From Rhodohalobacter sp. SW132 (GTDB taxonomy: Bacteria; Bacteroidota; Rhodothermia; Balneolales; Balneolaceae): a stretch of DNA of 64,000 bases. The notes under the pieces are model-generated. The model was given only the letters and a program-made list of their open reading frames with translations. It was not told where the DNA came from and ran no database searches. Position numbers and translations under genes: made by a program. Location of the stretch: positions 930,001 through 994,000 of the forward strand of contig NZ_QUOK01000001.1 of assembly GCF_003390325.1 (NCBI RefSeq), in the 5' to 3' direction. This document shows positions 3,439 to 48,184 of this stretch, piece by piece. The number at the start of each line of letters is the position of its first letter. Position 1 is the stretch's first letter.

Positions 3439-4782
3439 TCAGGAATTCCTTTCCAGAAAGTGGGTGTTTCCCTTAACACGCACCATGGTGTTTGCTTTTG
3501 TGATGTACTGCCGCCCAAACCGGTTTTTAATTTCATCCACCGCCCTGCAACGGGCAACGTGTTCTTTTTCATCAGAAAAAAAGAGGTTCATCTGGCTGGT
3601 TTTATCTATTTGATGTGTTCCGATAACCAGGTTCCGAATCTCCATATTCTTCTCCGCAGCACTTCTGATGATCGGCATAACCGCCTCCATACAGGCCGAA
3701 AAAATATAATCATCAATATTCGTATGGGCGTCAGTGATAAACCGAAATCCCACATCGGGCAGTTCCTGTTTATTAAACCCAACAATGCCGGAAAAACTAT
3801 TGGCCCGGATATTGTATGAGCGCATCCTGTAACAGATCTGCTGGATGGCAACCACAAACTCACCCCGAATTCGATCTACACTGACAGATCCCTCCGAAAA
3901 TGTGTGTCCGTAACTCACGCCGTGTTTCGGTTTATAATTTGCTGAAATTTCATCCATCACCCGACCCTGGTCTTTTCCGGTAATGGTTTGAAAAAGCATC
4001 TTGCCAAAATTAGCGCCAAACAGCCGGATAAACGTTTTCACATTTCCTTTCTCCACCACATCACCAATCGTACGATACCCCTCGGCAAGAATATGCTCGT
4101 ATCTCCTTCTCCCTACTCCCCACACTTCATTCAGCAAAAGCGGGTGAATACGGGCTTTTTCATCTTCATCCGTAAGAACAAGAGTAACCCCTTTTGGTTT
4201 ATGCAATCCGCTGGAAAGTTTTGAATACGTTTTGGACCGGGCCACACCAATCGCGCCGACAAGACCTGTAACATCAAATATTTCCCGCTGAAGCCGATCG
4301 GCATACGCTTTTATCTCGCTCCGCGGGGCATCTTTCATGAACGTTAACTCAATAAAATATTCATCCATTGAATACCGCTCTACAACCGGCGCAAATTTCT
4401 TCATCACCAGGTGTACTTGTTCAGATATAGCTGTGTATGCTCCATAATCCACCTGAAGCATGCACACATACGGACAGAGCTGATACGCTTCGAGCGCACT
4501 CATACCTGTTTTTATGCCAAACGCCCTCGCTTCGTACGATGCCGTGGCGACAATCCCCTTCACGGTACCGTTTTCTTTTCGCCATCCGCCAATGATGAGC
4601 GGAAGCCCGTAGAGATTTTTCCGAAGCTGTTCCACCTGGGCATAGAAACAGGCAAAATCAAAATGGAGATAAAGCCTCTCCTTCCGTGATTTGTACTGAT
4701 GCTCCGGATAAACTGTACTGTAGAGCGTAATACGGTGAACATCGCGTTCCGGCTGATATGAATGCTGTTTGTGTTTCGACAT
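3439..4782 (-). CDS. Y-family (translesion) DNA polymerase, copy 1
   Basis: A 447-residue polymerase of the UmuC/DinB superfamily, expected to copy across damaged template. The catalytic acidic residues are visible: D42 in HFDFACFYAQVEQ and D140-E141 in RYSMDEYF. The finger region SYEARAFGIKTGMS and the helix-hairpin-helix-like EVWGVGRRRYEHI segment follow in the usual order. About 35 extra residues precede the palm. A clear paralogue lies at 34151-35503, and in both places the gene is divergent from a paralogous ~200-residue protein across a conserved 30-bp site. I cannot assign it firmly to the DinB, UmuC or ImuB subfamily. Damage-inducible control is likely but inferred. Confidence 0.88.
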   Translation of the reverse strand: MSKHKQHSYQPERDVHRITLYSTVYPEHQYKSRKERLYLHFDFACFYAQVEQLRKNLYGLPLIIGGWRKENGTVKGIVATASYEARAFGIKTGMSALEAYQLCPYVCMLQVDYGAYTAISEQVHLVMKKFAPVVERYSMDEYFIELTFMKDAPRSEIKAYADRLQREIFDVTGLVGAIGVARSKTYSKLSSGLHKPKGVTLVLTDEDEKARIHPLLLNEVWGVGRRRYEHILAEGYRTIGDVVEKGNVKTFIRLFGANFGKMLFQTITGKDQGRVMDEISANYKPKHGVSYGHTFSEGSVSVDRIRGEFVVAIQQICYRMRSYNIRANSFSGIVGFNKQELPDVGFRFITDAHTNIDDYIFSACMEAVMPIIRSAAEKNMEIRNLVIGTHQIDKTSQMNLFFSDEKEHVARCRAVDEIKNRFGRQYITKANTMVRVKGNTHFLERNS

Positions 4783-4797
4783 TTCGGAAGTTTAAGA

Positions 4798-4827
4798 TTG
4801 ATATGTACAATATATGTGCATAGTTTG
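4798..4827. promoter_or_regulatory. Conserved bidirectional operator/promoter of polymerase cassette, copy 1
   Basis: This 30-bp site lies between the divergent polymerase and partner genes. Its core is an imperfect palindrome, TATGTACA-ATATA-TGTGCATA (7 of 8 arm positions pair), flanked by TTGA and GTTTG. The reverse complement of 34104-34133, in the same place in cassette copy 2, matches it at 27 of 30 positions. The position between two start codons and the palindrome suggest a repressor such as LexA, but no LexA gene is in the window and the protein is not known. Confidence 0.6.
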
Positions 4828-4850
4828 GAATGACCAACAGGAATAAGGTC

Positions 4851-5459
4851 ATGAATACGTTTCCGATTATTGAAATGCTCGCATTTTACAGCAGGTATCA
4901 GCGGCTTGAGAAGCCCTCCTGGAGATCTGCATGCACCCGCCAGCTCCACCGGGTGCGTTCCTGCCACTGTAAAACAGACGGGGGAGTTCGAAAATCGTAT
5001 TACAGTATAGAAACCAAATCGGGTGAAATTATTGACCTGGAGTATAACGAAGAAGAGCTTGTGTGGAACCTCGTTCCATCAGACAGTTACCCCGATCATG
5101 TGGTTGATAAAGTTCTGGTGCTGATTAAAAGGCACAAACATACTCCATCAAGAGCACACCGTGTGATTCCGTACCGATTTGAAATTTTTCCTGAGTCTGA
5201 GCTTCATCAGACAGACAACAGGCCCGCACCCGCACTGGCTCAGCGGGTGGAACCCTTTCGATTTCAATCCGGAAAAATTCCCTCCTCACAAATAATCAAA
5301 ATTGTGACGCGTCACTTGGAAAATGTGATGGTCACTAAACACCTGCACTACGTTGTGGAAACCGATCAGCACAGATTTTTCCACCTCGTGTATATTTTAG
5401 ATGAAGCAGATTGGAGGCTGATGAACGAGGTTGATGAGCAGTTCTTTTTTGTAAAGTGA
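4851..5459 (+). CDS. Conserved partner protein of Y-family polymerase cassette, copy 1
   Basis: A 202-residue soluble protein that I do not recognise as a named family. Its paralogue is at 33471-34079, with strong blocks in common: FP-IEMLAF at the start, RVRSCH, HK-PSRAHR-IPYRFE, FRSGKIPSSQ and TDQHRFFHLVYILDE-DWR near the end. The start here is set by the paralogue (MN-FP) and by AGGAATAAGG upstream; an in-frame ATG at 4830 would add seven residues that the paralogue lacks. Both copies are divergent from a Y-family polymerase and share its operator, so I infer a polymerase accessory or regulatory role. No signal peptide or membrane segment. Confidence 0.75.
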   Translation: MNTFPIIEMLAFYSRYQRLEKPSWRSACTRQLHRVRSCHCKTDGGVRKSYYSIETKSGEIIDLEYNEEELVWNLVPSDSYPDHVVDKVLVLIKRHKHTPSRAHRVIPYRFEIFPESELHQTDNRPAPALAQRVEPFRFQSGKIPSSQIIKIVTRHLENVMVTKHLHYVVETDQHRFFHLVYILDEADWRLMNEVDEQFFFVK

Positions 5460-5544
5460 TAGTCACTGAATGAATAAATGATCTGAAGCACAACGATCAG
5501 GGAATATTTTGATATGTATAGAACGTAAAAAAATAATTTAGGGT

Positions 5545-5590
5545 AAAAAAACTGTAAGGGATATCGCTTTTTTAGATCATACGATTAGAA
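5545..5590 (+). promoter_or_regulatory. Conserved leader of small cassette gene, copy 1
   Basis: The blocks AAAACTGTAAGGGAT and TTTAGATCATACGATTAGA recur almost unchanged at 35644-35685 upstream of the paralogous small gene. The TTTAGATCAT block is 43 bp from the start codon in both copies, although the surrounding DNA has diverged. That points to a promoter or activator site. GTAAGGG followed downstream by CGATTAG could be an ECF-sigma promoter, but the spacing is longer than usual. Confidence 0.55.
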
Positions 5591-5623
5591 AGGAGTAACT
5601 ATCACTAATTAGCCATCACGACA

Positions 5624-5815
5624 ATGACCGAAGACATCAGAATGACAAAAGAGATTGACAATTTTGTACGGGGTGATATGGATATAGATAACGCAATCCT
5701 GCTGCTGCAACAAATATCTAAATCCGATAAGTGGATTGATCATCTTTTACTTGAAATGGAGCTTTCCGAGTATTATACGACTTCAACAAGAAAAGTGTAT
5801 TCATCATTGAATTGA
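5624..5815 (+). CDS. Small acidic helical protein of polymerase cassette, copy 1
   Basis: A 63-residue protein, paralogous to the 55-residue product of 35720-35887. They share MTE-IRMT, IHNFV/IDNFV, an A-x-L-x4-IS-S centre and WID-LL-EMEL-EY. The pattern is amphipathic helices with many acidic residues. The centre slightly resembles the N-terminal helical segment of anti-sigma factors, but there is no zinc motif and I would not assign that. The same leader precedes both copies, and both follow the polymerase/partner genes, so it belongs to the cassette. Here it follows the partner gene; in copy 2 it follows the polymerase. Confidence 0.7.
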   Translation: MTEDIRMTKEIDNFVRGDMDIDNAILLLQQISKSDKWIDHLLLEMELSEYYTTSTRKVYSSLN

Positions 5816-6299: not shown

Positions 6300-6590
6300 T
6301 TAAGCCTGAACAGCCTTAAGAGATTTGATATGCCTTTCTGGACGATTTAATGACAAATCGTGCATAGATTGCAAATTCAGCCAGAATTCAGGGGAGGTAT
6401 CGAATGCCTCTGACAGCAACCAGGCTGTATCCGGTGAGATTCCCCTTTTGCCTCTTACAATTTCGTTAATCCGCTGAATGGGGATTTCTAAATGGTCTGC
6501 CAATGCCTTCTGGGTTAGTCCCATTGGCTCAAGATATTCTTTGAGCAGGATGGTTCCGGGATGTGTTGTTACTCTGTTTTTTGGAATCAT
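6300..6590 (-). CDS. higA: HigA-type antitoxin, XRE-family helix-turn-helix
   Basis: A 96-residue DNA-binding antitoxin that neutralises HigB and represses its own operon. The family signature is clear: HPGTILLKEYLEPMGLTQ at the start, the helix-turn-helix LTQKALADHLEIPIQRINEIVRGKRGIS at about 25-52, and the DTSPEFWLNLQ tail at about 70. It lies 19 bp downstream of higB on the same strand, the usual toxin-first order of this family. Length is normal. Confidence 0.93.
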   Translation of the reverse strand: MIPKNRVTTHPGTILLKEYLEPMGLTQKALADHLEIPIQRINEIVRGKRGISPDTAWLLSEAFDTSPEFWLNLQSMHDLSLNRPERHIKSLKAVQA

Positions 6591-6609
6591 ATTGATTCAC
6601 CTGTTCTGT

Positions 6610-6903
6610 TTAATAGTGATAATCTACAATGGCTACATCATGAGCACTGGAATCCTGCCAGCGGAATACGATTCTCCATTGGGCATTGATTCGCATACTA
6701 TGATAGCCTTTATAATCTCCACGCAAAGCTTCTAATCGATTTCCTGGTGGTGATCGCAAATCATCCAAGGTGGTAGCCGCATTCAGTATATCCAGTTTAT
6801 AAGTGGCGGATTCAAGAATTTGGGTCGGAAGTCTTCTGACCTTGCTGCTTGAGTTGCCATGAAACAGATCTGATGTTGCCTTATCTCCAAATGATTTGAT
6901 CAT
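6610..6903 (-). CDS. higB: HigB-type toxin (RelE superfamily mRNA interferase)
   Basis: A 97-residue ribosome-dependent endoribonuclease of the RelE/HigB family. It begins with the typical MIKSFGDKATSDLFHG, has the L-x-L-x-x-A-x-x-L-x-DL centre, and ends with the RL-x-L-x-GDY-x-G-x-H-S-x-R-IN-QWRIVFRW strand set and the VDYH C-terminus. First gene of the two-gene operon with higA. Looks intact. Confidence 0.93.
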   Translation of the reverse strand: MIKSFGDKATSDLFHGNSSSKVRRLPTQILESATYKLDILNAATTLDDLRSPPGNRLEALRGDYKGYHSMRINAQWRIVFRWQDSSAHDVAIVDYHY

Positions 6904-11560: not shown

Positions 11561-11570
11561 GGGCTTCAGT

Positions 11571-12367: not shown

Positions 12368-12399
12368 AAAAAAAGCCACTCACAATGTGAGCAGCTTTT
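12368..12399 (-). terminator. Intrinsic terminator after tRNA-Asp tail
   Basis: On the minus strand AAAGCTGCTCACATTGTGAG pairs as CTCAC/GTGAG extended by GC/GC and is followed by TGGCTTTTTTT. It would have ended tRNA-Asp transcription before the element inserted. The same hairpin is repeated at about 11952-11985 in the tandem unit. Confidence 0.65.
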
Positions 12400-12444
12400 C
12401 AGCGATCCGGACGAGATTCGAACTCGCGACCTCCTGCGTGACAG
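12397..12444 (-). repeat. attL: detached tRNA-Asp 3' end (48-bp direct repeat)
   Basis: These 48 bp are identical to 48105-48152: the tRNA-Asp 3' flank, acceptor strand, T arm, variable region and half of the anticodon arm up to GTGACAG. Sequence diverges on both sides. The integrase gene starts 182 bp further right. This is the classical duplication left when a tyrosine recombinase inserts an element into a tRNA gene. Confidence 0.9.
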
Positions 12445-12625
12445 TCAGAATAAAGGCTACTCCATTGCATATCAATTAGTAACTTTCAGTAACTATAAAT
12501 TATTGTCTAACAACGATTTAAGCGTTACTTTGAATAACGATAATTAACAGTGTACAACTGACTTACACTGTCCCCTGGCTGTCCCCGGAAGATTGAATTC
12601 GTAAAGTTAAACACATAACATATTA

Positions 12626-13807
12626 ATGCCGATAAAGAAACTTAGTCATACTTTTATAAAGAAACTGAAAAACCCAAGGACAAGAATCGAGTATTCTGAT
12701 ACGGTTGTCGATGGATTAGTTTTAAGAGTTACAAAGACTGGTCACAAATCCTTTTGTTTTAGATATGGTGCGTCTGGTAAAAGATATACGATAGGTAAAT
12801 TTCCAACTCTTGGTTTAGCAGATGCAAGAAAGGTATCTAAGAAATTAGCTATAGATGTGGCCATGGGTATTGACCCCATGAAGAAAAGAAAACAGAAAGA
12901 GCGAGATGACAAGAACACTTTTAATAATCTGACAGCAAATTTCATCAAATATTACACACCATCGCTTAGGCCAAAGACTAAATATGAATATGAAAGAATT
13001 ATTAATAAAGAGCTTATTCCTGAATTTGGTAGCTCCAAGTTAAAAGACATAACTAGAGCTGAAATCCAAAAGTTTTTAGATCGTGTTGCCGATAAAAGAG
13101 ACAAAGCAACGATGTCAAACAGAATAAGGTCTGTTTTATCAAGATTATTCTCTTATGCAATTGACCGGGGGATGACTGAAAACAACCCGGTTATATCAAT
13201 ACCGCCGCGAAAAAAAGGTGAAAATAAAAGAGAGCGTTATTACTCAGAAAAGGAAATAAAGAAACTGTGGAGTGCTTTTGAACAAGAATCTGAACCCATA
13301 CAGTCGCTTTTTAAAATATTACTGCTGTGTGGACAAAGAAAGGGCGAAACCAGTAGAATGAGATGGAGTGATATAGAAAGTGGTGTATGGACTATTCCCT
13401 CCAAAGATTCGAAATCGAACAGGGAACACCGTGTACCATTATCCTCAACTAGTAAAAACATAATAGGTTCACTTAAATCTCACAATGGACATAGTGATTA
13501 TGTATTCAAATCGCCTGTTATGGAGAACGACCCAATACAATGGTTTAAACGAGCTGTGGATCGAATTCAAGAAGAATCAAAAGTATCCGATTTCAGAATA
13601 CATGACTTGAGAAGAACTGCAGCCACTTACATGGCACAATTAAAAATCGACAGAACTGTTTTGGGAAAAATATTAAACCACAAAGGATTATCTGGTGATA
13701 GCCAAATCACAGCTATTTATGACAGATATTCATATATGGAGGAAAAACGAGAAGCTATAGAATTGTGGAACAACTACTTATTAACAAAAATCCTTACCAA
13801 GAATTAA
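12626..13807 (+). CDS. int: Tyrosine-type site-specific integrase
   Basis: A 393-residue integrase of the P4-like type. It has an N-terminal arm-binding DUF4102-like domain (about 1-85), a SAM-like core-binding domain (about 100-185), and a catalytic domain with R in LCGQRKGETSR, K in DSKSNREHRVPL, the HDLRRTAATY box, H in ILNHKGL and the nucleophile in YDRYSYM. It should catalyse insertion into the 3' end of tRNA-Asp. The gene reads away from attL, and an unknown gene follows 4 bp downstream, so the two are probably co-transcribed. Confidence 0.95.
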   Translation: MPIKKLSHTFIKKLKNPRTRIEYSDTVVDGLVLRVTKTGHKSFCFRYGASGKRYTIGKFPTLGLADARKVSKKLAIDVAMGIDPMKKRKQKERDDKNTFNNLTANFIKYYTPSLRPKTKYEYERIINKELIPEFGSSKLKDITRAEIQKFLDRVADKRDKATMSNRIRSVLSRLFSYAIDRGMTENNPVISIPPRKKGENKRERYYSEKEIKKLWSAFEQESEPIQSLFKILLLCGQRKGETSRMRWSDIESGVWTIPSKDSKSNREHRVPLSSTSKNIIGSLKSHNGHSDYVFKSPVMENDPIQWFKRAVDRIQEESKVSDFRIHDLRRTAATYMAQLKIDRTVLGKILNHKGLSGDSQITAIYDRYSYMEEKREAIELWNNYLLTKILTKN

Positions 13808-22275: not shown

Positions 22276-23808
22276 TTATTCTGTGACATCAACTACCCTT
22301 TTTTCTTTTAAAGTTTGAGTAATCATTTGTTCCAAGATAGGTACCGCACGTAAACTTACTGATTGTTTTGGCGACTGATCCCTCGAACTGTATCGAATCA
22401 TTTTACCTGCTGTTTTATCTTTACGGGGCTTATTATTCTTGAAAAAGTGTAAATATTTTTTTGGTGAAATGCCATCATAGTGTAAGAATTTGACTTTGTC
22501 AGAACCATCATCTTTTTCAATGATTGAATCAAAATGTAATTTGGTTGCCAAACTTTTTCGATACGGTTCTATGAAATAAACCTCTTTGATACCGGCCAAA
22601 ACAATGTGGCGGGCACAGTTATGACAAGGATAAGTAGTACAAAATAGTTTCCCATTAATCATTTTATCCCCAGATTTTTGTGCCCCTTTTATTATTGCAT
22701 GCATCTCAGCATGCACCGCCCTGGAAAACTCTATCAATGATTTGATCTTAGACTTCTTAATAATTTGTAATGCTTTTGTCTTATTAAACTCGGAAATAAC
22801 ACCACCGTCAACTAAATCACCTAGTAATTTATCCGAAATTATAGCCTTCTCTTCATCATTAAAACATTTACCTCCTTCTATGTGCATGCACCGGCTATCA
22901 TTCACTTTATCTTCTGAATAATAAACCCCTCCTCCATATTTTGGGACGTCATTCCAGCCAACTGAAAGAACATCTCCTTGACTACTCATTACAGATGCCC
23001 CAACTTGTCTACTTAAACATGCAGAGTTACCAGCTGCTGCATATGCTAAATACATGGCTTTTTCATTTGCAGTTGGAGTCACGATACTCGTTTCAAATAT
23101 CAAGCTGCAAAATCGAGATATTTTATCCTGTAAAATTTGTCTATTAGTAATATTCAGTCTAATAAAAATATCAGATTCAGTTAAGCACTTAGATACTTTC
23201 TGTCCATGATCAAATTCTTCACCTGAATCCCTATCAATCAATTCAAAAATTTCAGGCTGTTCTAATCTCTCTTGAAGCAAATTATTGGTTCTGGTTTCAA
23301 TATCTGATAGGACACCTACGAAATAAACTATGTTACCATACACTAAGTTGAAAAGCTCAAGTTCTTCAATGTTTTTTATGGAATCAATTATGAAACACTT
23401 TCTAAGTGAGTGGAAATCATCATCAGGATGATCTTTACTTTTTTCTCTTACTTGGGCAATTTTATTGATTGCTAATTCGGCTAAAATTGATGCACCATGT
23501 TCTTTTCTAAGTTCATTCCCAGCATCAATAATTCTGTGATAGTACTTACCCTTACTCTCAGAAGAAGGGTCAAATTTAGCAACACTTTTATGCTTCTTTA
23601 TATATTCACTTAATTTTATTATTTCAGTCTCGTAAGAAAATTTTGAATCTAAGATTTCTTTAAATTCTGAAGCTGTATTGTGAAGATCCACACCTATAGG
23701 CCCACAGAGGCAAATTATTAATTCGTCTGTATATGTATTTTTAATTTTCTGTTGCAGACTTCCTTGTTCTACTTTTGATTTTAATACTTCTAATTGTTTT
23801 TCACCCAT
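22276..23808 (-). CDS. Anti-phage dCTP deaminase (AvcD-like)
   Basis: A 510-residue two-domain protein. The N-terminal ~230 residues have a P-loop-kinase-like fold with a degenerate loop (IICLCGPIGVDLHNTASEF). The C-terminal half is a zinc-dependent cytidine/deoxycytidylate deaminase with H366-A-E368 and PCHNC (C395, C398). This matches the AvcD/DCD anti-phage family, which depletes dCTP by deaminating it to dUTP during infection. In Vibrio the partner AvcI is an RNA; I see no room for an RNA gene between this and hsdR, as only 28 bp separate them. It is the last gene of a five-gene minus-strand operon with a type I restriction system. Confidence 0.87.
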   Translation of the reverse strand: MGEKQLEVLKSKVEQGSLQQKIKNTYTDELIICLCGPIGVDLHNTASEFKEILDSKFSYETEIIKLSEYIKKHKSVAKFDPSSESKGKYYHRIIDAGNELRKEHGASILAELAINKIAQVREKSKDHPDDDFHSLRKCFIIDSIKNIEELELFNLVYGNIVYFVGVLSDIETRTNNLLQERLEQPEIFELIDRDSGEEFDHGQKVSKCLTESDIFIRLNITNRQILQDKISRFCSLIFETSIVTPTANEKAMYLAYAAAGNSACLSRQVGASVMSSQGDVLSVGWNDVPKYGGGVYYSEDKVNDSRCMHIEGGKCFNDEEKAIISDKLLGDLVDGGVISEFNKTKALQIIKKSKIKSLIEFSRAVHAEMHAIIKGAQKSGDKMINGKLFCTTYPCHNCARHIVLAGIKEVYFIEPYRKSLATKLHFDSIIEKDDGSDKVKFLHYDGISPKKYLHFFKNNKPRKDKTAGKMIRYSSRDQSPKQSVSLRAVPILEQMITQTLKEKRVVDVTE

Positions 23809-23836
23809 GACTAAAGTTGTTAGTTTAGATTATTAT

Positions 23837-26215
23837 TTATCCCACCCTCTCCCTATACAACCACTCCTGAAATCCAACAAATGTCTCCCGGATCGATGGG
23901 ATATCTCCAAGTTCTCGCTTGGCGTCTGCTATGGCCCTATATTTTAGCCTGAGCAGGTTGCCGAGCTTATCATCGTCCAATTCACCTACACCGTCTTTTA
24001 TGTACTGCGCAAGGACAAAATTGATAAACTCCTGCTGTTTGGGGTCGTATGAGTCCAGGTGAAGCTTTGCGCGGTTCGCGCGGTCTGTGCGAGGAACAAT
24101 ATCGGAGTGGTAGGCCACGTAGGAGAGCACATCAAACAGGTCGCTGTCTTGACCGTGAATGGTATTGCGAAGATCTTCAAGCTGCGGGCCGGTATAACCT
24201 CGGTCGCTGAGCTCCTGAAGGAGTTGCTTTCGGGTGCCGGGTTTGCTCCATATTCGCCGAAGCTCATCTTCGCTTTTGATCAGGTCGGGCAGCTCGCCAA
24301 ACAGGTTCTCAATGAACTGTTCTGCCGATATCGGCGTACCATCGGGACTCCAGAATGTGGTTTTCACCATCGAATCCAGCTCCCGTACCTTGTTATCGGA
24401 TAGCTTCACCCGGACCATTCGTCGGGGTGACGTCTCACAAACACAGGGGTATTCACCGCACACCCGACAAAGTACAGGTTCGTTTATACACACACACGGC
24501 GATTGGCCGCAAACGGAGCAGAGCTCAGGACCGGGCGGGGGAACCGGAGGCTCCGGTTCAATCGGTTCGCCATCCCACTCCGGATCGTTGAAGTGTTCGT
24601 GTGCGTTCACAAAGTCGTAGATTGTAAAGTAGTCTTTACCGTCAAATACCCGCGTGCCGCGACCTACGATCTGCTTAAACTCCACCATGGAGTTGATCGG
24701 GCGCATCAGCACGATGTTTCGAACCTCCGGGGCGTCAACACCGGTACTCAGTTTTTGCGACGTGGTTAAAATCGTGGGGATGGTTCGCTCATTGTCCTTA
24801 AACTCGTTGAGGTGCTGTTCTCCCCGCGCCCCATCATCAGCCGTTACCCGGTGGCAGTAGTTGGTATTGGTACTATCGGCAATTTGGTTGATCAGGTCAC
24901 GGACGGCAGCCGCGTGGATTTGAGTGGCACAGAATACAAGCGTTTTCTGATTCTGGTTCATCATATCCATGAATAGCTCAACCCGGTACCTTTCCACATC
25001 CATCAGTTCGATGATGCGGTTCTGCTCTTCCAGCGAGTATTCCTTCTCTTGGTCTACTTCACCCTCCAGTACCTGGTCATCGGGTGTGTAGCGGTATTGA
25101 TCCCCTGTTGTGGAGATCTCCTTCACTTTAAACGGCGTTAGGAAGCCATCATTGATCCCTGCCTTCAGCGAATAAGTGTAGACCGGCTCGCCAAAGTACC
25201 TGTAGGTATCCACGTTGTCATTGCGCTTGGGGGTGGCGGTAAGCCCAAGCTGCACGGCCGGACTAAAGTACTCCATGATGGCCCGCCAGGAGCTTTCGTC
25301 ATTGGCTCCGCCGCGGTGACACTCATCAATGATGATAAAGTCGAAGAAATCCTCCGGGTACTCCCCGAAGTAGGGGGAGTCGTCCGGACCGCTCATAAAG
25401 GTCTGAAAAATTGTAAAGAAGAGGCTGGCGTTGGTCGGGACCTTGCCTTGTTTTTTGATCTCATCGGGGCGGATGCGAATAGTTGCATCGTCATTAAACG
25501 CACCAAACGATTGGATTGCCTGGTTGGCCAGCACATTACGGTCAGCTAAAAAGAGTATGCGCGGTCTTCTCTGGCCATCCCTGGAGAGATTCCACTTGGC
25601 CTGAAACAGTTTCCAGCAGATGTGAAAGGCTGTGGCCGTTTTACCCGTCCCCGTGGCCATAGTGAGTAGCAGCCGGTCTTGCCTCTCTGCAATAGAGTTA
25701 AGTACAGCATCCACGGCATTGCGTTGATAGTACCGTGGGAGATATTTGCCCATCAATAGCTCGTAGGGTACAGAGTTAAATCGCTCTTTCCAGTTCCATA
25801 CTTCGGGGTTTTGCCGAGTCTCTTCCGGTGGATAGGTCTTTAGCCAAAGCTCTTCAGGAGTAGGAAACCGGGAAACCTCTTCTTCACGAGCCTCTTCCAT
25901 ATCAATGCTGTAAATCCGGCCCCCGTTGGTGGAAAAAGTGTGGCGAATGTGGAGCCGTTCGGCGTAATCTTTTGCCTGTGCTACTCCGTCCGTATAATAT
26001 TTTTTTCTCGCTTTGGCTTCAATGACGGCAAGCTGACGATTTTTGTACTCAAGAATATAATCGGCGATGAGCGGGGGTGTCCGCCTGCCATTTCCAATCA
26101 GCCGTCCATCTGTAATTTGAACCTCTACGCGGATGCGGCTCTCCTCAACTTCACCCCAGCCAGCTTCTTTCAAAGCAGGTGTAATCAGCTCCAGTCTGGT
26201 TTGCGCTTCGTTCAT
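23837..26215 (-). CDS. hsdR: Type I restriction endonuclease subunit HsdR (EcoEI-like)
   Basis: A 792-residue restriction and translocation subunit. N-terminal nuclease motif: D52 and E66-A-K68 in VIEAKAR. Helicase motifs: Walker A MATGTGKT at 187-194, DECH at 297-300, TATPKR, and VGRGTR at 517-522. The C-terminus is EcoEI-type (GYTGPQLEDL onwards). An unusual insert at about 560-600 carries two CxxCx4CxC units (C566/569/574/576 and C583/586/591/593) after a proline-rich stretch, a likely zinc site between motor and C-terminal domain. It is separated from hsdS by an AlbA_2 gene, in operon order M-S-AlbA_2-R-deaminase. Confidence 0.95.
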   Translation of the reverse strand: MNEAQTRLELITPALKEAGWGEVEESRIRVEVQITDGRLIGNGRRTPPLIADYILEYKNRQLAVIEAKARKKYYTDGVAQAKDYAERLHIRHTFSTNGGRIYSIDMEEAREEEVSRFPTPEELWLKTYPPEETRQNPEVWNWKERFNSVPYELLMGKYLPRYYQRNAVDAVLNSIAERQDRLLLTMATGTGKTATAFHICWKLFQAKWNLSRDGQRRPRILFLADRNVLANQAIQSFGAFNDDATIRIRPDEIKKQGKVPTNASLFFTIFQTFMSGPDDSPYFGEYPEDFFDFIIIDECHRGGANDESSWRAIMEYFSPAVQLGLTATPKRNDNVDTYRYFGEPVYTYSLKAGINDGFLTPFKVKEISTTGDQYRYTPDDQVLEGEVDQEKEYSLEEQNRIIELMDVERYRVELFMDMMNQNQKTLVFCATQIHAAAVRDLINQIADSTNTNYCHRVTADDGARGEQHLNEFKDNERTIPTILTTSQKLSTGVDAPEVRNIVLMRPINSMVEFKQIVGRGTRVFDGKDYFTIYDFVNAHEHFNDPEWDGEPIEPEPPVPPPGPELCSVCGQSPCVCINEPVLCRVCGEYPCVCETSPRRMVRVKLSDNKVRELDSMVKTTFWSPDGTPISAEQFIENLFGELPDLIKSEDELRRIWSKPGTRKQLLQELSDRGYTGPQLEDLRNTIHGQDSDLFDVLSYVAYHSDIVPRTDRANRAKLHLDSYDPKQQEFINFVLAQYIKDGVGELDDDKLGNLLRLKYRAIADAKRELGDIPSIRETFVGFQEWLYRERVG

Positions 26216-26270
26216 TCTATTAGATTCTATTGAGTATTCTATTTAGCAATTATTCATTTTCTTGCACTTT

Positions 26271-27908
26271 TTACTTAATAGAATATCGGGTCCATCTTTT
26301 CTCGCCTTTTTTCTCAAGACTACCTTTATCAACCATGGATTTGATGATTCTTCTTACTTTGTGCTTATTGATTTCCTTTCCAATTCTTTTGTGAATGTCA
26401 CCAAAAGCACTTTTAGGATAAGCTTTTACATCTTTGTAGATCAATTCTTCCAATCGGTGATCTTCGATATTCTTTAGGCTGGTTTTACCTTTGAATTGGG
26501 ACTGCCGTATAAATTCGGGATTCACTGCATATTGAGTTCCTTTCCCTCGGCCAGATTTTACGACTAAGTCATAATCAAGTAATCGGCCAAGCCAACTCCT
26601 TAATCCATGTTCTTTATCTTGAGTTAAAATCTTGGATAATTCAATAGCCGTATATGATTGCTGTTGAGCTAATAGCCCAAGCGTTATAAGTTCACGTTGT
26701 TTCAGGTTAAACTCCGAGCTTGCTTTATCCATTAACCGGATAACCTGTTTGCTCACGAACTGCTTTTTCACAATCACTACAACTCTGTCATCAAGATCTT
26801 TAACCTCCGGAATTGGTTTACCTGAGGCAAGTAAATTAGCATACACTAAATCATAGCCACTTCCTTCTTTTTCCATTAACCCTAAATCATAAAATACTTT
26901 TGAAAGGTGTTCATTGCGCCTTACCGATTGACTCAGGATGTTTTTAGGAGTTACGCCAAAAGGCAGGCGACCCGGACTGTGGATTTCTAATCTGTCTGTA
27001 AAAATATTGATAAAAATATCGCCACGCATGGTATAGGTTCGATGTACTAAAGCATTTACAACCAACTCTCTTACCACTTCAATGGGGAAGAATTGGATGT
27101 TCTTTCGAAACATCCCTTCTGAAACTTCGATGCTTTCCTGCCAATCGGGAACATCGCTTAGAACACTGTTTAGCAGTTCTTTGGGATTTCTAAAGTAATC
27201 ATCCAGCAACAGCTTCCATACCTTTTCATCACTTTCGTTGTAGCGAATAACCTGTATAGCTGGCGGATATAAAAGGCTTGCCCTGTCCTGCCGGATACCA
27301 ATCCAAAGGATACCTAAATTGGTTAAAAAGCCTTGTTTTTGGAAAAAATAAAACTCAAAAATTTCTTCATCAGGCATTTCTTTAATAAAATCACTGACAC
27401 GAGCCGAATTGCGGATGTCATTCAAGAATACTTGCCTTTTTTGTGGATCAAAACGAGTGGCCGGTACCCGCTTGGTGATTTGTTCCTCCCACACATAGGC
27501 ATTTTTCTCGGCTGCTAAACGAGCCATTTCATCAGGCGGAACCGGTGTGCATTCATCATGTACGCGGGTATAGTAACGGCCATCGGTGGTAGAAGCGATG
27601 GTTTGTGCATTACGGAAGATTTCCAGCCGAATATACTCTGCCTTATTTTCGGCAATCTCAATAGTTACTGCGATACCGACATTTAAGGTACGGTGAGCAA
27701 TGTTTTTCTGTATCTTCTCCGGGAGATGAGGGTCTTTTATCGATTGGTTCTTGGGTGGTGAAGAATCCCCATCTTCAATACCGATAAAAATTATTCCACC
27801 ACGTCCATTAGCAAAGCACACACAATCTTTAGCCAATTCATCCCAATCGGTATTGGCACCTTTTAAAAAGCGAAGAGATTTTTTGTCGTTATTTTTACCT
27901 TCTTTCAT
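26271..27908 (-). CDS. AlbA_2 (Schlafen-type) ATP-binding protein with wHTH tail
   Basis: A 545-residue protein. Residues about 1-130 are a Schlafen/AlbA_2 domain (FLKGAN, CVCFANGRGGIIFIGIEDG). The middle has VVRELVVNALVHRTY and FTDRLEIHSPGRLP, the GHKL-like HATPase segment of this family, and the last 130 residues are winged-helix repeats. Such genes are often embedded in type I restriction operons, where they may regulate or act as an extra anti-phage component. It overlaps hsdS by 4 bp (ATGA), so it is an integral part of the operon. Confidence 0.85.
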   Translation of the reverse strand: MKEGKNNDKKSLRFLKGANTDWDELAKDCVCFANGRGGIIFIGIEDGDSSPPKNQSIKDPHLPEKIQKNIAHRTLNVGIAVTIEIAENKAEYIRLEIFRNAQTIASTTDGRYYTRVHDECTPVPPDEMARLAAEKNAYVWEEQITKRVPATRFDPQKRQVFLNDIRNSARVSDFIKEMPDEEIFEFYFFQKQGFLTNLGILWIGIRQDRASLLYPPAIQVIRYNESDEKVWKLLLDDYFRNPKELLNSVLSDVPDWQESIEVSEGMFRKNIQFFPIEVVRELVVNALVHRTYTMRGDIFINIFTDRLEIHSPGRLPFGVTPKNILSQSVRRNEHLSKVFYDLGLMEKEGSGYDLVYANLLASGKPIPEVKDLDDRVVVIVKKQFVSKQVIRLMDKASSEFNLKQRELITLGLLAQQQSYTAIELSKILTQDKEHGLRSWLGRLLDYDLVVKSGRGKGTQYAVNPEFIRQSQFKGKTSLKNIEDHRLEELIYKDVKAYPKSAFGDIHKRIGKEINKHKVRRIIKSMVDKGSLEKKGEKRWTRYSIK

Positions 27909-29086
27909 ACCGTTACAGTTTCATTCGCTGTAAGTTCTCCGGAGAAGGCTTTTTTTAATATGGATTTTTTGAGTTCTTCAAGTTCAACGCTCATTTTTTT
28001 ATAACTCTGAATAAGAGCAGCACTTCCCTCTTTAATCTTGACTAACTCATTAACAATTTTTTTCTGAACAACTATATCAGGCACGGGAATTTCAAATTGT
28101 AGAACATCATCCATATTTGCTCTTGGCATTCTTGCACCAGTTGAAGTATTGTTAATATTCTGGACAGTGCTTGGCTTTAAAAACCAGTAAAATATATATG
28201 TATTTAAAATTCTATTTGATGTTTTTACAGGGAAAATTTCTGTTGAGCAATGACCTTCGAAAGAAGGGATTAAAATTTTATTTAAGTAAGGTCGTAATCG
28301 TCCATACAACAGGTGGTTTTCATTAAAGTAAAATGTCCGACTTTTCATCTCCTTAGGGGTTAAATCACCAATGAATCGTCCTGTATTTGATTCGATATCT
28401 GCTAAACCCACATAAGGTATTCCAGTTTTTTCGTTGGTTGTTTTATCGTATTCACATACATCCTTAAGGTGAAATATATTTTTGTCATCTTCTGATAATT
28501 GGTCAAATGCTTTCTCCATCTTACTCTGAAACAGCTCCTCCGCATTTTCAATATTCCGCTCAAAGTTCGCTTTCGCTTGATCAATCGCCTCAAACGCTTC
28601 ATCCAAAATAGCTACGATGCGCTTTTGTTCTTTAGTGTTCTTAGGAAGATTAATTTTCAAATCTTCAAAACTGTAATTATTTATTTGAGGTATTGAGCTT
28701 CCATTGGATATGTCCAACAAATCAAAGCTTAAAAAATAATAGAAGAGATACTGTGAGAGAATATTGTCATGGGGAATTACTCCCATAATATTAAGATCTA
28801 CGCAAGCCGGTGTTTTTAAAACCCTTTTTTTATTCGTTGCTATTGCCCCGCCTCGCTTTGGAAAAATTACTGTACCAACCGGTAATATTTTACTTGGCTG
28901 TATATCATTCTTGTTAAGATGTCTTGATGAAGTAGTTACTGAATGTTCATTTTCAGGCAAGTTCATATCAGCGACCTTTAAATAAGGAATGTCACCAAAT
29001 TCCTGCTCCAATTTTTTAGAAACTGTAGTACCACTTTTAAGATTTACTACATCTATCAAATTTATTTCATCCCAACCATCCCTCAT
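27905..29086 (-). CDS. hsdS: Type I restriction specificity subunit HsdS
   Basis: A 393-residue subunit with two target-recognition domains separated by helices. Each TRD starts in the usual way (GWDEINLIDVVNLKSGTT and NIFHLKDVCEYDKTT). The conserved spacer helices read LPKNTKEQKRIVAILDEAFEAIDQAKAN after the first domain and VQKKIVNELVKIKEGSAALIQSYKK at the C-terminus. Recognition sequence cannot be predicted. It overlaps hsdM by 4 bp upstream and the AlbA_2 gene by 4 bp downstream, so the subunits are translationally coupled. Confidence 0.94.
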   Translation of the reverse strand: MRDGWDEINLIDVVNLKSGTTVSKKLEQEFGDIPYLKVADMNLPENEHSVTTSSRHLNKNDIQPSKILPVGTVIFPKRGGAIATNKKRVLKTPACVDLNIMGVIPHDNILSQYLFYYFLSFDLLDISNGSSIPQINNYSFEDLKINLPKNTKEQKRIVAILDEAFEAIDQAKANFERNIENAEELFQSKMEKAFDQLSEDDKNIFHLKDVCEYDKTTNEKTGIPYVGLADIESNTGRFIGDLTPKEMKSRTFYFNENHLLYGRLRPYLNKILIPSFEGHCSTEIFPVKTSNRILNTYIFYWFLKPSTVQNINNTSTGARMPRANMDDVLQFEIPVPDIVVQKKIVNELVKIKEGSAALIQSYKKMSVELEELKKSILKKAFSGELTANETVTV

Positions 29087-30540
29087 ACCAACTCCCGTAC
29101 TGATTGCATAATCCCTCGTGTTTCTACATCCAACATCTCCATTTCGTCCAAAATCTCTTGTGGGCTTCGGAGCGGACCTTCTTCCGGTGTATTTGGATTT
29201 GCAGGACTGAGATCAAATGTATCCTCTGGCACATCTTTGATCTCCAGATTCCAGGATTGTTCGGTTTCCGGCTTCTCTTTCTGTAGCTCTACAAACTCGG
29301 CCAAGTCCTCATCATTCAGAGGATTCGTTTTTCCTAAGTTTCGTTCCGGCCTGAACTGGTAGTACCAGATGTTTTTTGTGGGTTCGCCCTTTTCAAAAAA
29401 GAGCACAACCGTTTTCACACCCGCTCCCAGAAACGTACCTCCCGGCATGTCCAAAATAGTATGGAGGTTACAACTTTCGAGTAGTCGCTTCCGGAGGCTG
29501 ATGGAGGCGTTATCAGTATTGCTCAAAAAGGTATTCTTAATTACAATTGCTGCACGTCCGCCCGCTTTCAGGGACTTGATGAAGTGCTGCAAGAAAAGGA
29601 AAGCTGTTTCACTGGTCTTTATATCAAAGTTCTGTTGTACCTCTTTGCGCTCTTTTCCGCCAAAGGGAGGATTGGCCAGAATCACATTGTGCCGGTCCTT
29701 TTCCTGTATGTTCCGGATGTCTTCAGCCAGCGTATTGGTATGCACGATATTGGGTGCCTCAATTCCATGCAGAATCATGTTCATAATCCCGATGATGTAG
29801 GCCAGGTTTTTCTTCTCCTTCCCGTAAAACGTACTCTCTTTAAGGGTCTGAAGGTTCTCGGTCGTTTTCTCCATCCGCTCGTACATGTAATCGTAAGCCT
29901 CACACAAGAAACCGGCAGAACCAACGGCACCATCATAAATGGTCTCACCAACCTTTGGATCAACAACCTTGATCATGGCCCGGATCAGCGGCCGAGGCGT
30001 GTAATACTGTCCGCCGTTTCGCCCGGCATTGCCCATGTTCTTAATCTTGGTCTCATAGAGGTGGCTGAGTTCATGTTTATCTTCCGCTGAGAGAAACGGG
30101 AGCTTATTCACCTCATCAATCACATCCCGGAGCACGTACCCGCTATGCATCTTATTTTTCAGCTCCGAAAAGATCTCCCCGATCTTGTACTCGATGGTTT
30201 GCGGGTTATCAATATGATCCTGTCTGAACTTCTTGAGGTAGGGGAACAGCTTCTCATTTACAAAATCGATCAGGTCGTCGCCGGTCAGTACCGCGTTATG
30301 GTTCAGCTCACCCTCCTCATTCAGCGGATAAGCCCAGCTTTCCCACCGGTACTCTTCATCCAGTATATAGTTGTAACTCTCACCTTTTAACTGGGCCTCA
30401 TCCGACTTTTCCTTCTCCAGATCGTCCAGATATTTCAGAAAAAGTACCCATGAGGTCTGCTCAATATAATCGAGTTCACTATCGCACCCTGCATCCTTCC
30501 AGAGAGAATTATCAATATTGTTAAATGCCTGTTCGAACAT
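29083..30540 (-). CDS. hsdM: Type I restriction N6-adenine methyltransferase HsdM
   Basis: A 485-residue methyltransferase. The SAM-binding motif I region is DGAVGSAGFL near 203-212 and the catalytic motif IV is NPPFGG at 290-295. N-terminal HsdM_N helices (WVLFLKYLDDLE) precede it. With HsdS it methylates host DNA; with HsdR it cuts unmodified DNA. It is the first gene of the operon, so the promoter should lie in 30541-30718. Standard length, intact. Confidence 0.96.
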   Translation of the reverse strand: MFEQAFNNIDNSLWKDAGCDSELDYIEQTSWVLFLKYLDDLEKEKSDEAQLKGESYNYILDEEYRWESWAYPLNEEGELNHNAVLTGDDLIDFVNEKLFPYLKKFRQDHIDNPQTIEYKIGEIFSELKNKMHSGYVLRDVIDEVNKLPFLSAEDKHELSHLYETKIKNMGNAGRNGGQYYTPRPLIRAMIKVVDPKVGETIYDGAVGSAGFLCEAYDYMYERMEKTTENLQTLKESTFYGKEKKNLAYIIGIMNMILHGIEAPNIVHTNTLAEDIRNIQEKDRHNVILANPPFGGKERKEVQQNFDIKTSETAFLFLQHFIKSLKAGGRAAIVIKNTFLSNTDNASISLRKRLLESCNLHTILDMPGGTFLGAGVKTVVLFFEKGEPTKNIWYYQFRPERNLGKTNPLNDEDLAEFVELQKEKPETEQSWNLEIKDVPEDTFDLSPANPNTPEEGPLRSPQEILDEMEMLDVETRGIMQSVRELV

Positions 30541-32772: not shown

Positions 32773-33474
32773 ATGTGCGGACGTTACACACTTACCAGTA
32801 AAGAACTGAGGGAACTCGAAGAGTTTTTGAATACTATTGATAGAGATTCTAGTTTGAGTGACTCAAAAGCTCCTATCAATAACTACAATGTTGCACCCAC
32901 CCACGAAATGCCGGTGGCATATGTAGATGTAAACGGAAAACGAACACTGGAAACGATGCACTGGGGGTTTATGGGGTGGAAACCAAAGCCAGGCAAAAAA
33001 CTCTTTCTGCCAATCAATACTCGCGATGATTCTATTGTCGAGAAGCCAATGTGGAAGAAGCCTTTTCTCACAAGCAGGTGTATCATACCGGCAAGTGGTT
33101 TCTACGAATGGTCAGGTAAAAAAGGAAATAAGACGCCACACTATATCTATCCTGTAAATGAGAAGTTCATCGGGTTTGCTGGAATTTTCTCTGATTTGGC
33201 TCCTGAAGATATTTCTTCCAACAGGTCTTACTCGATTATCACAACCAAGCCGAATAAGGTGATGGAGAAGATCCATGATCGCATGCCGGTCATTTTGCAT
33301 CCATCGGAGTTTAGCGACTGGCTTGATCCGGATAATGAAGACCCGGATTATTTAACAGATTTTCTACGTCCGTATTCCGATGATGGAATCGATGAATATA
33401 TCGTCAGTAAAGCTGTCGGAAATGTCAAAAATAACAGTGAAAATCTTATTCAAAAGGCTGACTTATTTGGTTAG
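32773..33474 (+). CDS. SRAP-family (YedK/HMCES) abasic-site-processing protein
   Basis: A 233-residue SOS-response-associated peptidase-fold protein. It starts MCGRYTL, so after removal of Met the catalytic Cys2 can crosslink to abasic sites in single-stranded DNA and shield them. Other family motifs: NYNVAPT near 37-43, HWGF near 63, INTRDDS, CIIPASGFYEW with the key glutamate near 114, and the histidine in IHDRMPVIL near 175. It converges with the cassette partner gene (4-bp overlap) and sits next to a translesion polymerase, forming a local DNA-damage-tolerance block inside the element. Confidence 0.94.
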   Translation: MCGRYTLTSKELRELEEFLNTIDRDSSLSDSKAPINNYNVAPTHEMPVAYVDVNGKRTLETMHWGFMGWKPKPGKKLFLPINTRDDSIVEKPMWKKPFLTSRCIIPASGFYEWSGKKGNKTPHYIYPVNEKFIGFAGIFSDLAPEDISSNRSYSIITTKPNKVMEKIHDRMPVILHPSEFSDWLDPDNEDPDYLTDFLRPYSDDGIDEYIVSKAVGNVKNNSENLIQKADLFG

Positions 33475-34079
33475 CGTACAAACAGATACTGTTCATCTAC
33501 CTCCTGCATAAACCGCCAGTCCATCTCGTCCAAAATATAGACCAGGTGAAAAAACCGGTGTTGATCGGTTTCTGCCACGTAATTTAACTCTTTGGTGATC
33601 ATCGTGTTTTCAAGGTGCTGGGTTGGAAGCCCAATGACTTGAGAGGAGGGTATCTTACCGGAACGGAACCGGTATGGCTGCATTCTGTGAATCAATGATT
33701 TTTCGGTACCGTCATAGGTTTTCTTGGCTATCTCTTCTGGAAGCAGCTCAAACCGGTACGGGATGATTCGGTGCGCCCGTGATGGTTTATGTTTATGACG
33801 GTCTACAAGGGCTAATACCCGGTCAATCGCCATATCTTCATAGCCGTTTGTTTTATCGAGCGACCAAAACAGTTCCTTTTCGTTTAACACCAGGTCAAAC
33901 CGCTCACCCTGCTTGGTGTCTATCGTGTAAAATGATTTTTGAATCCCTCCCTCTTCTTTGCTGTGGCAAGAGCGCACTCGCAGAAGGTCACGGCGATACG
34001 GCAGCCTCCAATCTGCATTAGGACTGGCTTCATATCGGGTAAAAAATGCCAGCATTTCTATAAGTGGAAATTCATTCAT
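33471..34079 (-). CDS. Conserved partner protein of Y-family polymerase cassette, copy 2
   Basis: A 202-residue paralogue of the product of 4851-5459 (blocks MNEFPLIEMLAF, RVRSCHSK, RHKHKPSRAHR, FRSGKIPSSQ, TDQHRFFHLVYILDE). Roughly half or more of positions agree by eye, so the two cassettes separated a fair time ago. Divergent from the polymerase at 34151 and, at its 3' end, overlapping the SRAP gene by 4 bp. Unknown function; the constant pairing suggests it serves the polymerase. Confidence 0.75.
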   Translation of the reverse strand: MNEFPLIEMLAFFTRYEASPNADWRLPYRRDLLRVRSCHSKEEGGIQKSFYTIDTKQGERFDLVLNEKELFWSLDKTNGYEDMAIDRVLALVDRHKHKPSRAHRIIPYRFELLPEEIAKKTYDGTEKSLIHRMQPYRFRSGKIPSSQVIGLPTQHLENTMITKELNYVAETDQHRFFHLVYILDEMDWRFMQEVDEQYLFVR

Positions 34080-34103: not shown

Positions 34104-34133
34104 CAAACTACACACATATATTGCACATATCAA
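34104..34133. promoter_or_regulatory. Conserved bidirectional operator/promoter of polymerase cassette, copy 2
   Basis: The reverse complement agrees with 4798-4827 at 27 of 30 positions, with the shared core ATATGTRCAATATATGTG. Orientation relative to the gene pair is the same in both copies, and distances are alike (24-25 bp to the partner gene, 16-18 bp to the polymerase gene). The palindrome is weaker here (4 of 8 arm positions pair), which argues that direct half-sites rather than symmetry may matter. Confidence 0.6.
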
Positions 34134-34150: not shown

Positions 34151-35503
34151 ATGTATGAAATGCCTAAAAAAAAGACATATGCCTATCAGCCCGAACACGA
34201 TGTTCACCGGATCACCCTGTACAATACCATCTACCCGGAACACCAACACAGTTCGCGAAAAGACAGGCTTTATCTCCACTTTGATTTTGCCTGTTTTTAT
34301 GCGCAGGTAGAACAGCTTCGCAAGAATTTATACGGGCTGCCGCTGATAATAGGTGGGTGGCGCAAGGAGAATGGTCAGGTAAAAGGAATTGTAGCCACGT
34401 CCAGTTATGAGGCTCGAAGCTTTGGCATTAAAACGGGCATGAGCGCCTTTGAAGCGTGGCAAATCTGTCCGCATGTTTGCATGCTCCAGGTGGACTATGA
34501 CTCCTATACTGCCATCTCCAAGCAGGTACACTTCATTTTTAAGGACTTTGCCCCTGTTGTGGAGCGCTACAGTATGGATGAGTATTTCATGGAGGTAGAT
34601 TTTCTGAAGGAAAAATCCCGAAAGGAAATAGACGACTTTGCAAGGCGGCTGCAGGAACGGATCTTTGAATCCACAAACCTGGTGGGCGCTGTGGGCATTG
34701 CCCGCTCGAAGACCTACGCCAAGCTCTCCAGCAGCTTAGACAAACCAAAGGGTCGGACGTTAATATTAACGACCGATGATGAACGAACAGAAATCTGGCC
34801 ACTGGATCTGGATGAAGTCTGGGGTGTGGGCAAGAGAAGGTATGAGCATATCCTGGCTGAAGGCTACAAAACCATTGGAGATGTAGCTCAGCGCGGAAAT
34901 ATCAAGACCTTCATTCGCCTGTTCGGTGCCAACTTTGGCAGAATGCTCTATCAAACCATTACTGGGAAAGACCAGGGTCGCGTAATGGAAGAAATCTCTG
35001 AGGACTACAAGCCAAAGCAGGGCATCAGCTATGGGCACACCTTTTCAGAAGGCTCTGCCGATATGGATCGGATAAAGGGTGAGTTTGCCATTGCCGTCCA
35101 GCAGGTATGCTACCGGATGAGAGCCTATGGCATCCGTGCAAATTCGTATTGGGGGATGTTTGGTTTTAATGATCCTACTAAACCCGGAGTTGGATTTCGA
35201 TTTGTCACCCCCGCTCATACAAGCATTGATGATTATGTATTCGCGGAATTAATGAATCAAATTAAACCGGCCCTACAAAAAGCGAGCAGGGATGGCATTG
35301 AAATCCGGAACATTGGCCTTGGAACCCATAAGATTGATAAGACGAATCAGCTCAGCGTATTCTTTCAGGATGATGAAGATAAAACAAAACGGATAAAAGC
35401 TATGGACGAAATTAAGAATCGGTTTGGGCCGAAGGTCATTACCAAAGCAAATACTCTTCACCGGGTCGAAGGTAATACCCACTTTTTAGATCGTAACGTA
35501 TAG
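34151..35503 (+). CDS. Y-family (translesion) DNA polymerase, copy 2
   Basis: A 450-residue paralogue of the 3439-4782 product, highly similar over its length. Catalytic residues are kept: D45 in HFDFACFYAQVEQ and D143-E144 in RYSMDEYF. I choose the ATG at 34151, preceded by GAAGGA, because the longer frame from 34094 would run through the conserved operator and because copy 1 starts at the equivalent place. Being on a mobile element with an SRAP gene, it may supply damage tolerance during transfer, when DNA is single-stranded. Confidence 0.88.
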   Translation: MYEMPKKKTYAYQPEHDVHRITLYNTIYPEHQHSSRKDRLYLHFDFACFYAQVEQLRKNLYGLPLIIGGWRKENGQVKGIVATSSYEARSFGIKTGMSAFEAWQICPHVCMLQVDYDSYTAISKQVHFIFKDFAPVVERYSMDEYFMEVDFLKEKSRKEIDDFARRLQERIFESTNLVGAVGIARSKTYAKLSSSLDKPKGRTLILTTDDERTEIWPLDLDEVWGVGKRRYEHILAEGYKTIGDVAQRGNIKTFIRLFGANFGRMLYQTITGKDQGRVMEEISEDYKPKQGISYGHTFSEGSADMDRIKGEFAIAVQQVCYRMRAYGIRANSYWGMFGFNDPTKPGVGFRFVTPAHTSIDDYVFAELMNQIKPALQKASRDGIEIRNIGLGTHKIDKTNQLSVFFQDDEDKTKRIKAMDEIKNRFGPKVITKANTLHRVEGNTHFLDRNV

Positions 35504-35643: not shown

Positions 35644-35685
35644 AAAACTGTAAGGGATCGATAGGATTTAGATCATACCGTTAGA
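35644..35685 (+). promoter_or_regulatory. Conserved leader of small cassette gene, copy 2
   Basis: AAAACTGTAAGGGAT, then TTTAGATCATACCGTTAGA, match 5545-5590 nearly base for base; the TTTAGATCAT block lies 43 bp from the ATG in both. Confidence 0.55.
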
Positions 35686-35719: not shown

Positions 35720-35887
35720 ATGACAGAACAAATTAGAATGACGAGAGACATTCACAATTTTGTGCAGGGTAAAATGGATTGGGAGAATGCTGTAGAGTTG
35801 TGGAGAAGGATATCAGAATCGGAAGTGTGGATTGATTATTTATTGATGGAGATGGAACTGTATGAGTATTTTGAAAATTTCGAATAA
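35720..35887 (+). CDS. Small acidic helical protein of polymerase cassette, copy 2
   Basis: A 55-residue protein (MTEQIRMTRDIHNFVQGKM..., ending EYFENFE) that a length filter of 60 residues would miss. It is the paralogue of 5624-5815: the N-terminal MTE-IRMT, the WID-LL-EMEL-EY motif, the leader and the spacing are all conserved. Here it follows the polymerase gene in the same direction, 216 bp downstream, while in copy 1 it follows the partner gene. So the small gene keeps company with the cassette although gene orientation changed. Confidence 0.7.
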   Translation: MTEQIRMTRDIHNFVQGKMDWENAVELWRRISESEVWIDYLLMEMELYEYFENFE

Positions 35888-48103: not shown

Positions 48104-48110
48104 ATTTCAG

Positions 48111-48184
48111 CGATCCGGACGAGATTCGAACTCGCGACCTCCTGCGTGACAGGCAGGCGTTCTAACCAGCTGAACTACCGGACC
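48111..48184 (-). tRNA. tRNA-Asp (GTC)
   Basis: A complete 74-nt cloverleaf without encoded CCA. Acceptor GGTCCGG pairs with CCGGATC (one G-U), discriminator G. D arm AGTTCAGCTGGTTAGAACGC, anticodon loop CTGTCAC with GTC, T arm TCGCGAGTTCGAATCTCG. Its 3' part is the attachment site of the island: 48105-48152 is repeated exactly at 12397-12444, and the integration rebuilt an intact gene here. Confidence 0.95.

Follow-up and report, generated by a model that had tools for sequence, protein, structure and literature searches.

Induction of the SOS response follows an established pathway, in which DNA damage leads to RecA filaments and these to the self-cleavage of LexA. Among the enzymes that take part in lesion bypass, most predicted mutasomes made of a Y-family polymerase and RecA (PolY-RecA) are, to our knowledge, without a known manager subunit. 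In the available portions of two reports, Y-family polymerases are described in which a motif resembling the RecA N-terminus (RecA-NT) is followed by a conserved tail, and these tails are proposed to bind UmuD or YolD (PMC6511836, PMC12926913). For the Balneolaeota, the accessible text of a regulon study gives a LexA motif, TTACACATATTTTWTACATA, with EMSA support obtained at other Balneola promoters, and a regulon that includes pol IV/V, a radical SAM protein and an SOS peptidase (PMC7739468).

Here, we describe a polymerase-partner cassette that is real, SOS-regulated as judged by sequence and partly new, and that consists of two genes and not three. Our main reading, to which we assign a probability of about 0.68, is that it constitutes a two-gene SOS lesion-bypass (mutagenesis) unit, in which the partner would bind and manage the polymerase.

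Two cassette copies and their mobile context

In the window, that is the whole 64-kb stretch of DNA analysed, a Y-family polymerase, a partner of ∼200 residues and a small protein of 55–63 residues are grouped at 3.4–5.8 kb and again at 33.5–35.9 kb (Table 1). The initial annotation had reported this double occurrence; the coordinates were confirmed, and both copies are homologous, with identities of 70% for the polymerases, 58% for the partners and 61% for the small proteins. The gene order it gave was also correct, the small gene lying 3′ of the partner in copy 1 and 3′ of the polymerase in copy 2. The conserved start codon of the copy 1 partner is an in-frame ATG at 4851. A recent duplication did not give rise to the two copies, since their nearest relatives differ (loci L043 and L042 for copy 1, L012 for copy 2). 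The host genome measures 5.1 Mb, and its named close relatives, as judged by the cassette locus, are Rhodohalobacter, Balneola and Gracilimonas. A HigA/HigB-like toxin-antitoxin pair is located downstream of copy 1 (window 6300–6903).

Table 1. Features of the two cassette copies and of the surrounding element (window coordinates)
Feature	Coordinates	Strand	Remarks
Copy 1 Y-family DNA polymerase	3439..4782	-	447 aa; Pfam IMS 1e-37; alignment of 18 homologues
Copy 1 LexA box ATATGTACAATATATGTGCAT	4801..4821	+	Between polymerase and partner; matrix score 28.2
Copy 1 partner	4830..5459	+	Two tandem beta domains
ECF-type promoter-like element, TGTAAGG-N17-ATCATAC, upstream of small gene 1	5553..5582	+	
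Small gene 1	5624..5815	+	63 aa; anti-sigma-N-terminus-like
52-nt tRNA-Asp-end copy (att-like), left end of element	12397..12448	.	98% identical to 48105-48156
Tyrosine integrase of element	12626..13807	+	Pfam Phage_integrase 1e-21
SRAP (HMCES/YedK-like) gene adjoining copy 2	32773..33474	+	Pfam SRAP 3e-59
Copy 2 partner	33471..34079	-	202 aa; tandem beta domains ∼residues 4-76 and 127-192
Copy 2 LexA box ATATGTGCAATATATGTGTGT	34110..34130	-	Score 31.5 (matrix from other loci)
Copy 2 Y-family DNA polymerase	34160..35503	+	447 aa; Pfam IMS 8e-41; homologue alignment
ECF-type promoter-like element upstream of small gene 2	35649..35678	+	
Small gene 2	35720..35887	+	55 aa
tRNA-Asp, right end of element	48110..48184	-	ARAGORN; repeat 48105-48156

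Copy 2 is carried by a ∼35.7-kb integrative element inserted at tRNA-Asp (window 12397–48184), and copy 1 lies outside it. The earlier claim that the module occurs on both chromosome and mobile element is thus borne out, as copy 2 is surrounded by a mobile element with a tRNA-Asp repeat at its bounds. Two further partial copies of the tRNA end, at 11566 and 11982, suggest that integration happened more than once. The cargo of the element comprises type I restriction, a dCTP-deaminase-like protein, a UG5-nitrilase reverse transcriptase and Gabija. These form a defence island (window 38441–41521, 41735–45497 and 22276–30540), in which the reverse transcriptase is a DRT, the Gabija GajA is found with a UvrD-like helicase gene and the restriction-modification system is accompanied by an AlbA/Schlafen-type protein.

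Decaying remnants are present elsewhere in the same genome (L057 on contig C7 and L055 on C4). They include part of a polymerase gene, with 94% identity to copy 2, as well as small genes and a two-domain partner that are broken, and show that cassettes turn over. The partner was not found on PLSDB plasmids at E<1. One IMG/VR contig (L084) encodes a large restriction-methylation protein and SRAP together with a two-domain partner, and its end truncates the polymerase side; because a restriction enzyme and SRAP accompany the partner, this contig may be a mobile element rather than a phage.

Pairing of polymerase and partner and their common operator

The partner was sought in 198 genomes of the phylum and then by profile in 394; loci were counted after removal of duplicates between collections, and 24 were readable for the polymerase question. 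In both searches, two-domain partners were confined to the family of the host. The polymerase was their divergent neighbour in 23 of the 24 loci, which excludes chance as the origin of the pairing. At the single exception (L051), the partner is without an intact polymerase alongside, and a 23-residue polymerase scrap is found nearby. Distances between polymerases and between partners correlate (Mantel r 0.86, 0/5000 permutations), with a contribution of shared species history, and such a matched divergence is also expected from shared ancestry. Of the other neighbours, SRAP is the most constant, located within ∼5 kb of 16 of the 23 cassettes.

A common box, ATATGTRYAAWATATGTGTRT, was found between the two genes in 20 cassettes, and the three cassettes added later have it too (23/23). 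The operator is a direct repeat, ATGT-N7-ATGT, in favour of which a palindromic reading was dropped. When window sites were scored with a matrix built from other loci only, the two cassette boxes were the only strong LexA boxes in the 64 kb, the next best site reaching 8.4 and the shuffle maximum 11.3. The cassette box matches the reverse complement of the LexA motif given in the accessible text on the Balneolaeota (PMC7739468), and it is on this account that the polymerase-partner cassette is read from its sequence as an SOS unit, in a predicted regulon shared with lexA, umuDC and SplB-like genes. According to pattern searches, on which all genome-wide counts of the box depend, it occurs upstream of lexA-like genes (L088, L114 and L120, one of them in the host genome on C5), of umuDC (L078, L080, L083, L107, L121 and, on contig C9 of the host, L092) and of SplB-like radical SAM genes (L094, L105, L112 and others), and a weaker box is found near recA. 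The LexA of the host has both LexA_DNA_bind and S24 domains.

An inverted repeat, TGACCA...TGGTCA, was also observed at window 4830–4856, where it reaches into the start codon of the partner (GGTCATGAA). It is conserved at the equivalent sites of nearly all cassettes, imperfectly in copy 1, and is possibly involved in translational control or a second operator.

The polymerase is the only member of the cassette with a recognised Pfam family (IMS). With this domain and its catalytic residues kept (D42, D140 and E141, invariant in an alignment of 18 homologues), it is predicted to be active. It has a clamp motif, QMNLFF, of which Q397 and F401 are invariant in the same 18 homologues, and after this motif a RecA-NT-like segment, A414-x-D416-x-I418...G423, followed by an invariant C-terminal tail, RVxGNTHFLxRN. 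The best position of the RecA-NT match inside the polymerase is the C-tail. Compared with the N-terminus of the RecA of the same genome, the segment gave p<0.001 in L044 (score 53), L046, L047 and L048 and p 0.007–0.008 for the window copies. By its clamp and RecA-NT-like motifs, the polymerase thus fits the PolY-RecA type, and a contact with RecA would be expected. A PDB sequence search with the C-tail gave nothing useful.

The small gene and its putative promoter

The initial annotation had proposed a three-gene translesion-synthesis module and a neighbourhood survey of its co-occurrence. What stands is an SOS-regulated polymerase with an unnamed partner, as predicted from the LexA boxes and found together in nearly all readable loci; the third gene probably does not belong to it, being near only 4 of the 23 cassettes, without a LexA box upstream and with a promoter of its own. 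The small gene was found within 5 kb of both window copies, at ≤250 bp, and of the cassettes of L015 and L037, where it lies downstream of the polymerase at a distance of 1.5–2 kb. Six-frame translations of the loci of the first survey were searched with an HMM of the small family, which revealed no further copies beside cassettes; for the three later additions the check was by tblastn alone, and the absences at L042 and L043 are weaker because these contigs are short.

An element of the type TGTAAGG-N17-TC[AT]TAC precedes most copies of the small gene and occurs nine times in 513 kb of locus sequence, as against 0.3 in shuffles. The small protein matches the N-terminus of a 276-aa TPR protein (L060; match in G151 with E 5e-4), the gene of which is preceded by the same element and lies directly downstream of an ECF-like sigma gene, itself weakly matched by Pfam. 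A homologous TM/TPR protein with a TM-like segment is encoded on C9 of the host genome. As the homologous N-terminus sits in a protein encoded beside an ECF-like sigma gene, the small gene appears to encode an anti-sigma-type N-terminal domain that stands alone, under a putative ECF promoter, and is probably a neighbour rather than a part of the polymerase-partner unit. The element was also seen before genes unrelated to the cassette (L060:8504, L039:10482, L044:7119 and L060:12225), and the genes behind it are a candidate ECF sigma regulon of the Balneolales.

It could still be argued that the small protein is an obligate third subunit or an inhibitor of a three-component module. Besides the spacing given above, its genes lie near a polymerase relic in L057, and, viewed from the small gene, nearness to cassettes or relics is commoner than chance for a family of ∼7 copies or remnants in 5.1 Mb, so that a loose link to the cassette remains. 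However, 19 of the 23 cassettes lack the gene, its ECF-type promoter element recurs before genes outside the cassette, and the homology of the protein is to the N-terminal part of anti-sigma-like TM/TPR proteins. A third subunit is thus mostly refuted by the survey, and we regard such a module as very improbable.

The partner protein and comparison with known systems

Neither the partner nor the small protein could be placed in a family with confidence by searches of Pfam, NCBIfam, PHROGs and PADLOC, and the partner family, described as unnamed at the outset, is indeed so. When the two halves of the partner were compared by hhalign, the score was 28.9, above the best of 200 shuffles (19.5); the protein has therefore arisen by tandem duplication of a domain of ∼75 aa, for which a beta fold is predicted. 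AlphaFold2 of the whole partner from six sequences was unusable (pLDDT 38.5). With an alignment made of both repeats of seven proteins, a single repeat was modelled as a four-stranded meander (pLDDT 71, core 85–91), and fold searches with this model returned weak matches to common beta arrangements only.

A profile search revealed single-domain relatives of ∼95–110 aa. They occur in many Balneolales, also outside the family of the host, and the host genome itself has one (C3:513837). These relatives are closer to the second half of the partner (E 4e-23) than to the first (E 6e-7). Across the order (L052, L139–L155), several have SRAP, lexA or a polymerase of a sister subfamily as a neighbour. 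The sister polymerase lies within 3 kb of seven single-domain loci, in several layouts, and most of the loci have a LexA box; one locus (L148) is a lexA-partner-polymerase cluster, and no polymerase was present within the DNA covered at L052, L151 and L155. The partner might be a damage-response protein in its own right, such as one that binds DNA or lesions and cooperates with SRAP, and only share the operator. Single-domain homologues that occur with SRAP or without polymerase and have their own LexA box (L052, L139/L151, L141) speak for this, as does the lesion binding that Aravind et al. proposed for ImuB-C. We nevertheless judge it unlikely, given that the polymerase is practically always present at two-domain loci and that loci from other families of the order (L150, L153 and L154) have both genes in the same direction, as an operon preceded by a single LexA box.

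The partner could also be a true, divergent and duplicated ImuB-C (DUF6504), and the cassette a DnaE2-free variant of the systems made of PolY, standalone ImuB-C and RecA. This would refine the two-gene SOS explanation rather than oppose it. The Pfam model most often matched below threshold by the partner is DUF6504 (11 of 22 members, best E 0.007), on the first repeat (∼residues 29–75) in every member inspected individually; the domain is all-beta in the model, hhalign aligns the partner domain with ImuB-C from end to end, and the company of PolY, LexA and SRAP is that of standalone ImuB-C genes (PMC3765255, PMC6511836). However, none of the DUF6504 matches comes near the curated cut-off, profile-profile comparison with 8 and then 17 ImuB-C sequences did not establish a link, the scores against the 17 being no better than those of shuffled columns, and DnaE2 is absent from the genome. 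Kinship with ImuB-C is therefore hinted at, not established; we consider it possible, though clearly short of probable, and what we claim, by analogy, is a similarity of role. Standalone ImuB-C genes adjoin PolY, DnaE and, once, lexA on Deinococcus plasmids, and in another lineage of the phylum (L065–L071) the order S24, polymerase-like, DUF6504 corresponds to the standalone ImuB-C layout.

Two other identities were rejected. The cassette is not ImuA-ImuB-DnaE2, as the genome has a single DnaE match and the catalytic residues of the polymerase are intact, and the partner is not a UmuD, as it has no S24 match in Pfam and the host has its own umuDC on contig C9.

We thus retain the two-gene SOS lesion-bypass unit as the preferred reading. 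LexA would bind the single operator between the divergent genes and keep both shut, as expected from the operator sequence and from the EMSA published for the same motif; after damage, its self-cleavage would allow both genes to be expressed. The polymerase would reach the beta clamp through its QxxxFF motif and RecA through its RecA-NT-like motif. The partner would bind the polymerase, most likely at the invariant tail RVxGNTHFLxRN, and most likely manage its activity or access in the manner of UmuD′ with UmuC, and of YolD and ImuB-C. The role of manager is suggested by the near-obligate pairing, the shared operator and the matched divergence, and the mode of action is argued by analogy, since the partner gave no confident family or fold match. 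Nearby SRAP may shield abasic sites in the same SOS response, and the small gene would be run independently of the unit from its ECF-type promoter.

More broadly, and as a tentative proposal to which we give slightly less than even odds, the partner family would be a new manager of Y-family polymerases. This beta-domain subunit, spread through the Balneolales, would have been single in its ancestral form and duplicated in one branch; it would stand in for UmuD, YolD or ImuB-C in a mutasome of the PolY-RecA type, often accompanied by SRAP, and copies of it would move on integrative defence elements. With a partner nearly always paired with the polymerase under a common LexA operator, and with single- and double-domain forms each having a sister polymerase, the family offers a natural experiment on the evolution of manager subunits. 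The cassette also allows a direct test of the invariant C-tail as a docking site, and a mobile defence island that carries a unit for SOS mutagenesis links phage defence with induced mutation.

Compared with PolY and standalone ImuB-C (DUF6504), the cassette is alike in having a small all-beta partner beside PolY, with LexA and SRAP nearby, whereas its partner is two-domain, divergently transcribed and not recognised as DUF6504, and it is without DnaE2. In B. subtilis YqjW-YqjX/YolD-RecA, a small beta partner likewise accompanies a RecA-NT PolY with a conserved C-tail; however, no sequence link of the cassette partner to YolD was found, in a Pfam search that might miss a remote relation. Pol V (UmuDC) shares with the cassette an SOS-controlled Y-family polymerase, a RecA-NT motif and a dedicated small partner, which in Pol V is the self-cleaving S24 protein UmuD, unlike the cassette partner, and the host encodes umuDC separately. 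The putative PolY-RecA mutasomes have the same combination of clamp motif, RecA-NT-like motif and conserved C-tail, to which the cassette adds a dedicated partner family not named in the available portions of those reports (PMC6511836, PMC12926913). Finally, the LexA regulon of the Balneolaeota, in the accessible description of which the partner is not mentioned, has the same operator as the cassette and likewise includes translesion polymerases (PMC7739468).
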